The notes beneath the pieces are model-generated. The model saw only the letters and a program-made list of their open reading frames with translations, was not told where the DNA came from and made no database searches. This document shows positions 50,688-54,252 of a stretch of 64,000 nucleotides of DNA, piece after piece (the first letter of the stretch is position 1; each line of letters opens with the position of its first letter). A program made the position numbers and the translations under genes. The stretch covers positions 797,244-861,243 of the forward strand of contig NC_015681.1 in the NCBI RefSeq assembly GCF_000217795.1, written 5' to 3'. The stretch is from Thermodesulfatator indicus DSM 15286. Its GTDB lineage: Bacteria; Desulfobacterota; Thermodesulfobacteria; Thermodesulfobacteriales; Thermodesulfatatoraceae.

Positions 50688-52019
50688 TTAGTCTGAGTAA
50701 TACTTATAGTGATCTTTCTTAGTCATCTGGCGAAGCCTTGAAAGAGCTTTCTTCTCAATCTGCCTGATACGCTCACGAGAAACACCAAAACGCTTACCAA
50801 TCTCTTCAAGGGTATATTCGCTTTCCTCGCCTATTCCGAAACGTAAACGAATAATTTTTTCTTCACGAGGAGAAAGGGTCGATAACAAATTACGCACTTT
50901 TTCAGAAAGATCCCTATCTTTTACCTGTTCAAATGGTGAAGGACTTTCTTTATTTTCGATAAAATCTCCCAGAGTGCTATCTTCGTCTCCAATTGGCAGT
51001 TCTAAAGAAACTGGTTCTTTAGAGGCCTCAAAGATAGCCAAAATCTTTTCCTGTGGAATACCTGTACGCTCAGATATTTCCGCAGGTGTAGGTTCACGCC
51101 CAAGCTCTTTTACCAGCTCATAAAAAGCCTTAAAGAACTGGCTACGCAACTCAAGGAAATGCACTGGCAACCGAATAGTACGAGTTTTATCGAGAATAGC
51201 TCTGGTAATAGCCTGCCTTATCCACCAGGAAGCATAAGTGCTGAACTTATTCCCTTTGCTGTAGTCAAAACGAAAGACAGCCCTCATAAGACCGAGGTTA
51301 CCCTCCTGAATAAGGTCTGCCAGAGAAAGCCCTTGCCCCATATAGCGTTTGGCAATAGAGACCACCAACCGCAAGTTGGCCTTGACCATTTCATCTTTGG
51401 CCTTTTCAACTTGAGCAGCCCTTTCTTCAATAGCCCGACAAAGCTCGGCAATAGATTCATCTTCAGGATATTTCTTGTGGATCTCCTGCACAGTTCGGAC
51501 CATAATGTTTAAATGACTCTTCTTAGGTTTAAGGCCCGGATCTCTTTTCTTCCAAAGTCTTATCTGCTCACGCAACTCTTCCATCTCAGGAAGCTCAGAA
51601 GGATGTTCCATAATAGAATTCACTATAAACTGGAAGCCGCCTCGGATTATTTTAGAAAGCTCTTCTTCTTTCTCAGGAGTTAGAAGTTCATATTTGCCCA
51701 TCTCGCGCAGGTATGCAGAGGTAACTTCTTCAGATTCAGAAGCCGCTATAGGTTCTTCTTCCTCTTGAGTAACCACTTCTTCGATTTTCTTTTCAGGGGA
51801 ACGCTCTGGCCAGTCAGGGTGATCCTTTTCAAAAAGTTCTTTCTCGTCAAGGACTTCTATGTTATTCTTGTAGAGAAAATCAAAAATTGCTTCTATCTTT
51901 TTAGGATCACCAAATTCTTCAGGAAGGAGGTCATTTAAGGCCTCGTAAGTAATAGCTCCGTCCTTCCCGGCCTCTAATAACTTTTCCTCTAAATTTTGAA
52001 CCTTTGTCTTCTTTTTCAT
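50688..52019 (-). CDS. rpoD: RNA polymerase primary sigma factor
   Basis: 443 residues. Region 1.1 is at about 8-60, region 1.2 begins at SAYLREMGKYELL, region 2 carries NLRLVVSIAKRYMGQGLSLADLIQEGNLGLMRAVFRFDY with WWIRQAI, and region 4 ends GKRFGVSRERIRQIEKKALSRLRQ. The long non-conserved insertion of proteobacterial RpoD is absent, as in compact sigma-70 factors. It directs transcription from -35/-10 promoters such as those marked in this window. Confidence 0.95.
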   Translation of the reverse strand: MKKKTKVQNLEEKLLEAGKDGAITYEALNDLLPEEFGDPKKIEAIFDFLYKNNIEVLDEKELFEKDHPDWPERSPEKKIEEVVTQEEEEPIAASESEEVTSAYLREMGKYELLTPEKEEELSKIIRGGFQFIVNSIMEHPSELPEMEELREQIRLWKKRDPGLKPKKSHLNIMVRTVQEIHKKYPEDESIAELCRAIEERAAQVEKAKDEMVKANLRLVVSIAKRYMGQGLSLADLIQEGNLGLMRAVFRFDYSKGNKFSTYASWWIRQAITRAILDKTRTIRLPVHFLELRSQFFKAFYELVKELGREPTPAEISERTGIPQEKILAIFEASKEPVSLELPIGDEDSTLGDFIENKESPSPFEQVKDRDLSEKVRNLLSTLSPREEKIIRLRFGIGEESEYTLEEIGKRFGVSRERIRQIEKKALSRLRQMTKKDHYKYYSD

Positions 52020-52239: not shown

Positions 52240-52983
52240 ATGACGGATAAAGAAAAGAAAAAGCTTGAAAAAATGCTTTATTATGCTTTAGGGCGACGGC
52301 CTGATGAATTTGGCCTGGTTCCGCAAGAAGGCTTTGTGCGCTTAAAAGACTTGCACCGGGCTCTCATTGAAGTGGATGGTTTCAAAAATATTCGCTTAAA
52401 AAAGCTTAAAGACTTCTTCCTTATTTTTAAGCCTGAACGTTTTGAGTTTAACGAAGAAAAAGAAATAGTACGGGTAAAACCTGAGTTGGCCGCAGAAGAA
52501 ATTTATATCAGGGAGTTTAGCGAAAATCCTCCGACCATTTTGTACGTAACTGTAAAGCCCAAGGCTTGGATAAAGATTTCAGAAGAAGGGCTAGCTTCGG
52601 AAGCTATTGTCTTAACTCCAGATAAAGAACTGGCCCAAAAGATGGCCAAAAGGAAAGGGGCTCTGGTTATCAAAGTAGATACTAAGAAGGCCATGAGTTT
52701 AGGAACCATTTTTGAACGCTTTATTGAAAAGTTATTTTTGACCAGTTGGATTCCTGCTGAAGCTTTAAAAGGTCCGAAAGTAGATGAAGCTTTTAAAAAA
52801 CGCTATCTGCCACCTCCTAAAAAAGAAAAAAAACCGCCAATAATTCTCGAGATTGAACCTTCTTTTCAAGAAGAAACAAAACCTGCAGAAGAAGTTCTTC
52901 CTTATCGCAAGATCACTAAAGGTCGCAAAAAAGACCCTGCTTGGAAAAAGGCCCAACGCATTAAACGACGCGAAAGACTTTAA
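52240..52983 (+). CDS. KptA/Tpt1-like protein (RNA 2'-phosphotransferase fold) with altered catalytic residues
   Basis: 247 residues. The N-terminal KLEKMLYYALGRRPDEFGLVPQEGFVRLKDLHRAL follows the KptA winged-helix lobe. The C-terminal lobe (LYVTVKPKAWIKISEEGLASEAIVLTPD...GALVIKVDTKKAMSLGTIFERF...LFLTSWIPAEAL) follows the NAD-binding lobe. The usual LRH reads LGR and LYHGT reads LYVTV, so residues of the Arg-His-Arg-Arg tetrad appear replaced. It may be inactive as a 2'-phosphotransferase or use another chemistry. The basic tail (KRRERL) suggests RNA binding. 220 bp of AT-rich DNA separates it from rpoD. Family call by eye. Confidence 0.55.
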   Translation: MTDKEKKKLEKMLYYALGRRPDEFGLVPQEGFVRLKDLHRALIEVDGFKNIRLKKLKDFFLIFKPERFEFNEEKEIVRVKPELAAEEIYIREFSENPPTILYVTVKPKAWIKISEEGLASEAIVLTPDKELAQKMAKRKGALVIKVDTKKAMSLGTIFERFIEKLFLTSWIPAEALKGPKVDEAFKKRYLPPPKKEKKPPIILEIEPSFQEETKPAEEVLPYRKITKGRKKDPAWKKAQRIKRRERL

Positions 52984-53052
52984 GTACTTTGAGTTTTTCA
53001 TTTGACTAATGTCTACCAAAAAAGTATTTTTGAAGGCAAAAAGGAGGCCGGG

Positions 53053-54252
53053 GTGCCACTTCCAGACAAGCAAGGACATTTTGGACCCTTTGGCGGACGA
53101 TATGTTCCAGAAACCTTAATGCCAGCTCTTTTTGAGCTGGAAGAAGCCTATCGCCATTACAAGCGAGATAAGTCCTTTAAAAAAGAACTTGATTTTTACT
53201 TCAAAACTTATGTAGGAAGGCCAACCCCTCTTTATCCCGCAAGCCAGCTAGCTAAAAAATTAGGCGGGCACTTAAAAATCTACCTCAAACGCGAAGACTT
53301 AACTCATACTGGTGCGCACAAAATAAATAACACCATTGGTCAGGTACTTCTGGCCAAAAAAATGGGAAAAAAGCGCATTATTGCCGAAACAGGAGCTGGC
53401 CAGCATGGCGTCGCTACAGCTACGGCTGCCGCCCTCCTCGGCCTTGAATGTATTGTCTATATGGGTGCCAAAGACACTGTGCGCCAGGAAATGAATGTCT
53501 TCCGTATGGAACTTCTAGGAGCCAAAGTTATCCCTGTCTATTCTGGCACCCAAACTTTAAAAGACGCTATAAATGAAGCCATAAGAGACTGGGTTACCAA
53601 TGTGGAAACCACTCATTACGTAATCGGCTCGGTAATGGGCCCTCACCCCTATCCCATGATAGTGCGTGATTTTCAAAGCATAATTGGCAAAGAAACCAGA
53701 AAACAAATACTTGCGGCTGAAGGACGTTTGCCAGATGTTCTCATCGCCTGTGTAGGCGGAGGCTCAAACGCCATGGGTTTATTTTATCCCTTTGTGGAAG
53801 ATCAGATGGTCAAAATGATAGGTGTTGAAGCGGCAGGTACAGGTCTTGATACCGACAAACATTCCGCCACTCTTACCGTAGGTGAACCAGGAATACTCCA
53901 CGGCATGATGACCTATCTCCTCCAGGACAAAGTAGGCCAAGTAAAAGGGGCTCATTCTATAGCCCCGGGGCTCGATTATCCAGGTGTCGGGCCAGAACAT
54001 TCCTTTTTAAAAGAAACTGGCCGAGCTGAATACGTAACCGTTGATGACCAAGAAGCCCTCTCTGGTTTTAGACTACTTTCTGAAACTGAAGGCATTATCC
54101 CTGCCCTTGAAAGCGCTCACGCCGTGGCTTATCTGGCTAAAATAGCTAAAAAACTCCCTCAGGGGACCATTGTAGTGGTTAATCTCTCTGGCCGGGGAGA
54201 TAAAGACGTAGCGGCAGTGCGTGAATACCTGCGGAGGAAAAGTGATGACTAG
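53053..54252 (+). CDS. trpB: Tryptophan synthase beta chain
   Basis: 399 residues from GTG 53053, which has AAGGAGG 5 bp upstream. An in-frame TTG at 53002 would add 17 residues and lacks a ribosome-binding site. The PLP lysine is K90 in HTGAHKINN; the phosphate-binding GGGSNAMG lies near 235. It joins indole and serine to tryptophan. It overlaps trpA by 8 bp. Standard TrpB1-type length; the other trp genes are elsewhere. Confidence 0.96.

Follow-up and report, generated by a model that had tools for sequence, protein, structure and literature searches.

A tailed KptA-like protein of Thermodesulfatator indicus that lacks key residues of RNA 2'-phosphotransferases

The 64,000-nucleotide stretch of Thermodesulfatator indicus DNA analysed in this study (the window) carries a gene for a 247-amino-acid protein that is a member of the Tpt1/KptA superfamily, with significant similarity over both lobes of the fold. 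The gene spans positions 52240 to 52983 of the forward strand (ATG at 52240, stop codon ending at 52983), as indicated by the open reading frame, a PF01885 match, profile searches and an AlphaFold2 model. We consider it reasonably probable that this protein is a KptA-derived pseudoenzyme that associates with RNA through its N-terminal lobe and a basic C-terminal tail. The role of KptA in bacteria is a long-standing puzzle, because we know of no splicing pathway in these organisms that generates the 2'-phosphate substrate of the enzyme. The presence of the same catalytically dead version across much of the phylum suggests a job other than 2'-phosphate removal. A literature search, which left most subscription journals outside its reach, returned no report of an inactive KptA family or lineage.

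Fold and active site

An earlier note on this DNA had proposed that both lobes of the Tpt1/KptA fold can be followed in the protein, and several lines of evidence agree. The Pfam model PF01885 matches residues 5-168 with a score of 27.2 bits (cut-off 26), and both lobes align to CthTpt1 (PDB 6e3a). When the sequence alone was searched against the PDB, only KptA/Tpt1 entries were found, with 6e3a as the best match (E 1.7e-5). A profile made solely of 28 relatives within the order, none of which has the catalytic residues, matched CthTpt1 at E 1.4e-11 and nothing else significantly, and a profile to which some intact members were added gave a best PDB match at E 3e-39. An AlphaFold2 model of the protein (pLDDT 89.8) was used for a Foldseek search, in which the top 22 matches were all KptA/Tpt1. 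A different fold family was rejected because no profile placed the protein in one, and the significant profile and structure matches were to KptA/Tpt1 only. The model superposes poorly on KptA overall (rmsd ~11 Å). A rearrangement of the lobes as a special feature of this protein was rejected, since the model of an intact member superposes equally badly, which points to a modelling or shared effect.

The N-terminal RNA lobe comprises residues 1-85 (52240..52494, forward strand), as set by the lobe boundary of CthTpt1 at amino acid 85, and retains Lys11, Y15, P21 and the EFGL motif. The former NAD lobe follows as residues 86-178 (52495..52773, forward strand), based on the alignment, the model and the profile. 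G178-P179 (52771..52776, forward strand) marks the conserved end of the fold and the start of an extension, and P179 is found in a fraction of 0.95 of the degenerate members. Among the 28 order members, the invariant core residues are K11, Y15, P21, E23, F24, L26, P107, W110, L131, G140, G178 and P179. The protein thus resembles characterized Tpt1/KptA proteins (PF01885; CthTpt1 6E3A, TkoKptA 9LD4, PhoTpt1 8TFI and E. coli KptA) in its two-lobe fold over residues 5-178, in the N-lobe motif K11, Y15 and P-[DW]-E-[FY]-G-L, and in the equivalents of Arg68 and Arg139. In contrast, it lacks Arg18, His19, Arg121, His101, Thr103 and His125, carries a 70-amino-acid C-terminal extension with a conserved basic tail, and falls far under the cut-offs of the NCBIfam KptA equivalog models (49.7, 41.2, 19.8 and 18.4 bits versus cut-offs of 239, 231, 279 and 233, respectively). 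Neither CthTpt1 (182 amino acids) nor E. coli KptA (555-bp gene) has such a tail.

In CthTpt1, the essential catalytic tetrad consists of Arg18, His19, Arg68 and Arg121, the phosphate is contacted by Lys66 and Tyr80, and NAD+ is bound by His101, Thr103, Arg121, Arg139 and Arg140 (PMC6333775). The two substitutions listed in the earlier note, LRH to LGR and LYHGT to LYVTV, can be read straight from the DNA. The first two tetrad residues are lost where L17-G18-R19 (52288..52296, forward strand here and below) replaces Leu17-Arg18-His19, and the NAD adenosine-ribose contacts are lost where L101-Y102-V103-T104-V105 (52540..52554) replaces L-Y-His101-Gly-Thr103. Two further changes go beyond that list. 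The second NAD-site histidine is gone, with I123-V124-L125 (52606..52614) aligned to V-His125-L so that the YVHL motif reads AIVL, and Arg121 is gone, with the preceding loop that bears it shortened. The tetrad positions are therefore occupied by G18, R19, the retained R67 and a gap at 121, and the NAD site reads V103, V105 and V124 in place of H101-G-T103 and the histidine of YVHL. R67 (52438..52440) is equivalent to the catalytic Arg68 and is kept in 36 of 167 family members, and R138-K139 (52651..52656) corresponds to Arg139-Arg140, with Arg139 kept in 151 of 167. Only these Arg68 and Arg139 equivalents remain in the window protein among nine catalytic and NAD-binding residues tested. Some phosphate contacts could persist, given Arg67, Arg138 and the arginine at position 19.

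These findings bear out the expectation that this KptA-fold protein does not run the NAD-dependent 2'-phosphotransferase reaction, as both tetrad and NAD residues are missing. From its residues, the protein is very likely unable to bind NAD+ in the manner of KptA or to transfer an RNA 2'-phosphate. Indeed, NAD-dependent 2'-phosphate removal appears excluded with high confidence, because the RslTpt1 double mutant H99A-T101A, altered only in the His and Thr of its HGT motif, gave 4% product in vitro and proved lethal in yeast (PMC6333775). Whether other residues fill the tetrad had been raised as a check, and the outcome was negative: a family-wide search for residues that rebuild it revealed none that are conserved, and compensating residues were rejected on this basis. 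Position 18 itself varies widely in the family (residues include G, A, S, C, T, V, L, Y and E), and the loss extends to the NAD site.

It is improbable, in our judgement, that the protein is still an enzyme of altered chemistry that uses another cofactor or a phosphorylated substrate in a remodelled cleft. Such a function would be in keeping with the retention of R67 and R138, with the Arg139 equivalent in most of the family, with the presence of G137 in 71% of degenerate members and with purifying selection on the core. However, no new conserved polar set is apparent, the invariant core residues of the order are mostly structural, and Thermodesulfobacterium members lack even Arg139.

The conserved tail and a putative RNA-binding role

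The fold is followed by a variable, mixed-charge linker (residues 180-219; 52777..52896, forward strand) that is modelled with low confidence (pLDDT 49-61 for residues 201-230) and is poorly conserved (mean majority fraction 0.36 for residues 190-219). The basic tail, LPYRKITKGRKKDPAWKKAQRIKRRERL, comprises residues 220-247 (52897..52980, forward strand), as defined by composition, the model and the order alignment, and includes a predicted terminal helix at residues 234-246 (pLDDT ~86). With 13 K/R versus 2 D/E and a pI of 11.7, the tail is as basic as the earlier note had described. R223, K224, T226, G228, K230, K231, W235 and K236 are invariant in the order, such that 8 of 16 positions (222-237) are invariant in the tail versus 12 of 175 in the core (Fisher p 2.6e-5).

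Nearly all family members, intact or dead, have a C-terminal basic tail ending in ...GKKK...WK...RRxR. Both kinds have in common the GP hinge, the variable linker and a basic C-terminus with W-K and an Arg/Lys cluster, which is the combination by which we define a tailed KptA and which the window protein possesses. Of 164 members, 130 have a WK dipeptide among their last 45 residues, and the median net charge over the last 30 residues is +10. In the genomes of the order there is one such tail per genome, always in the KptA-like gene; no other protein in these genomes has the same tail at a significant score, and no relatives of the tail were found in the PDB.

Pairwise dN/dS values for the core are ~0.05-0.2 (approximate, with dS saturated in several comparisons), and those for the tail are similar in most pairs. 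The low values rule out a pseudogene. Chance does not account for the substitutions or the tail, because both are found again in dozens of related genomes and core dN/dS is low. Seven Thermodesulfobacterium-group genomes lack the gene although rpoD is present, and several complete Thermodesulfobacteriales genomes lack it at the syntenic rpoD locus, so the gene is not essential there. The absences in the Thermodesulfobacterium group, together with a possible remnant at one rpoD locus, would fit a gene that is decaying toward loss after KptA became useless. This explanation is largely refuted by the selection data and is extremely unlikely, since frames are intact in nearly all of the >100 genomes with a match, dN/dS is low and the tail is invariant across deep divergence. 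The possible remnant is a 77-amino-acid frame divergent from rpoD (genome G026, L245:1252-1482) that resembles residues 29-64 of the family profile (DYKDFLRIKRNFQVSIFVKKFKKIKF), and it is likely, or at least possible, that it represents a decayed copy in a lineage that lost the gene.

Because fold and tail are under purifying selection, the retained function is likely to be non-catalytic. We infer RNA binding from the retained Lys11, the basic tail and what the N-lobe is known to do. In the mechanism that we propose, a tailed KptA/Tpt1 RNA 2'-phosphotransferase gave rise to the pseudoenzyme, whose winged-helix N-lobe with phosphate-facing Lys/Arg residues and flexibly tethered basic tail with its invariant Trp-Lys would bind structured RNA. 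The target might be tRNA or rRNA, for example, with the protein serving as a chaperone, a stabiliser or a competitor for access. The tail appears to predate catalytic loss, being already present in the intact ancestor, which suggests that the binding role is the older one and rendered catalysis dispensable.

Basic tails are also able to bind proteins, membranes or DNA, which counts against RNA as the ligand, and the tail may equally well serve for docking on a protein or the ribosome. It is conceivable, albeit unlikely, that the dead fold serves as a protein adaptor: its tail (G-[KR]-K-K...W-K) would attach to a protein or the ribosome, the globular part would act as a scaffold, and the ligand would not be RNA. 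Conservation of the tail above that of the fold, an invariant Trp typical of docking motifs and a catalytic-site surface that is not conserved among dead members speak for an adaptor; the very high positive net charge, the descent from an RNA-binding enzyme and the lack of a conserved gene neighbour speak against it.

Distribution across the phylum and history of the losses

The family was found in 103 of 297 genomes sampled across the phylum, and the same protein in 37 of 60 relatives examined. Named members include Thermodesulfatator autotrophicus (84% identical), Thermosulfurimonas, Thermodesulfobacterium, Desulfatibacillum and Desulfonema. The gene is single copy per genome, except for one genome with a split match. 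In that genome (G151, L133) the profile matches two distant pieces on one contig with an N-run in the tail of the larger piece, and the split probably stems from a gap in the assembly, not from a divided gene. When scored for the nine residues, the 167 members form two groups, in which 19 keep 7-9 and 148 keep 0-4; the complete tetrad is present in 17. Most KptA relatives in the phylum therefore lack the active site and keep the fold and a better-conserved tail, and thus constitute natural separation-of-function variants. Such variants point to a role that does not involve catalysis, probably RNA binding, and that the tailed enzymes may share.

Every PF01885 match in the 297 genomes falls in a genome with the tailed family, and the coordinates overlap where compared; KptA in the phylum therefore exists almost only in tailed form. 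Two exceptions, both grouping with CthTpt1, are untailed canonical KptA proteins whose catalytic residues are intact (L037 in genome G039 and L221 in G232). Since the host of L037 belongs to the order of T. indicus, this copy was probably acquired horizontally. At E <= 0.01, PF01885 detects only 15 of the 28 order members (a Thermodesulfobacterium protein, L017, scores 16.4 bits versus the cut-off of 26), so automatic annotation overlooks part of the family. The automatic label RNA 2'-phosphotransferase is wrong for dead members, and the more divergent members are missed by the Pfam model.

Tailed intact KptA proteins of other Desulfobacterota (for example L032, L035 and L132) share with the window protein the C-terminal architecture, namely the GP hinge and the basic WK/RR tail. 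Unlike the window protein, they have all catalytic and NAD residues. L032 and L035 are 29% and 26% identical to it, respectively, and score 123-134 bits with PF01885. A tree of the 167 members and CthTpt1 was built by a quick method (59 of 165 inner branches starred, many deep forks weak). All catalytically intact members cluster with CthTpt1, and the window protein belongs to a clade with full support that comprises 28 degenerate proteins from its order. This tree requires at least three changes of state and so three or more losses of catalytic residues. Rooting on the canonical enzyme, as placed by the quick tree, would mean one large early loss followed by later separate losses.

Individual codons document changes at the first tetrad position. 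In family f13, intact members have CGG or AGG at Arg18, whereas three relatives have CTG, CAA or GTG with LxHRPDEF otherwise kept, and one member of family f40 has GCC. Thus, Arg18 was altered while the surrounding motif was still intact. Three nearly intact tailed KptA proteins carry Leu (CTG), Gln (CAA) or Val (GTG) in place of Arg18 (L141 in G291, L142 in G228 and L148 in G179), and L141 and L142 retain the HGT motif. They are apparent early stages of active-site loss.

Known RNA systems and gene neighbourhood

In archaea, tRNA U47 is reversibly 2'-phosphorylated by the ArkI/KptA system, in which active KptA erases 2'-phosphouridine-47 (PMC9095486). The window protein shares with this system the KptA fold, and the hosts in its order are thermophilic; however, the eraser chemistry appears impossible for it, and mesophilic lineages carry the dead protein too. 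It is doubtful, although worth stating, that the dead branch has turned from an eraser into a binder, which would now read RNA 2'-phosphate or recognize a specific tRNA or rRNA site once phosphorylated. If so, Desulfobacterota would hold undiscovered internal RNA 2'-phosphorylation, and bacterial KptA would have a non-catalytic role held by its tail. A reader of 2'-phosphouridine-47 is an attractive fit to a thermophilic order. Set against it are the mesophilic carriers and the finding that Pkinase (PF00069) and RIO1 (PF01163), which are general kinase-family profiles rather than ArkI-specific ones, have no match in the genome of T. indicus. The N-lobe model of an intact member has a weak structural likeness to the winged helix of the La motif (LARP1 LaM; rmsd ~2.9 Å, E ~0.2), which is not significant; the KptA C-lobe and the sequence exclude membership.

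The KptA-like gene is flanked by a divergent rpoD gene (sigma factor; 50688..52019, reverse strand, from the open reading frame and neighbourhood comparison) and by trpB (53002-54252). The rpoD arrangement is kept in Thermodesulfobacteriales (26 loci) but not phylum-wide. A divergent hemL lies beside the gene in Desulfobacterales (30 loci) and is, with rpoD, the commonest context; elsewhere in the phylum the neighbour is hemL, a DUF1844-like gene or others. It seems very improbable that the family, from its intact ancestor to the dead members, works on DNA or in transcription, for instance as a regulator. The divergent rpoD and the ability of a winged-helix lobe to bind DNA would suit such a role, but the arrangement is confined to one order and KptA N-lobes are known RNA binders (PMC6333775). 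Across the family loci there is no universal operon partner that would link the protein to an RNA pathway, which counts against the RNA-associated reading. The neighbours seen (rpoD, hemL, CCA/poly(A) polymerase-like, MiaB-like, DUF1844-like and trp genes) were rejected as partners because all are lineage-specific. An Rfam search around the gene matched no structured RNA, and promoter and terminator scans were at most modestly above shuffles.

A CCA-adding/poly(A) polymerase-like gene adjoins or lies near the dead KptA gene in 17 loci (including L053, L058, L064, L073, L092, L093, L106, L111 and L116, and L050, L052 and L057 in Thermodesulfobacterium). The two genes share a strand in Desulfobacterales MAGs and converge in Thermodesulfobacteriaceae. 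On the 3' side, the window has trpB and trpA, and several close relatives (compare L042 and L049) have a TolC-like outer-membrane factor and efflux genes. This rearrangement lies beside the otherwise conserved pair of rpoD and the KptA-like gene.
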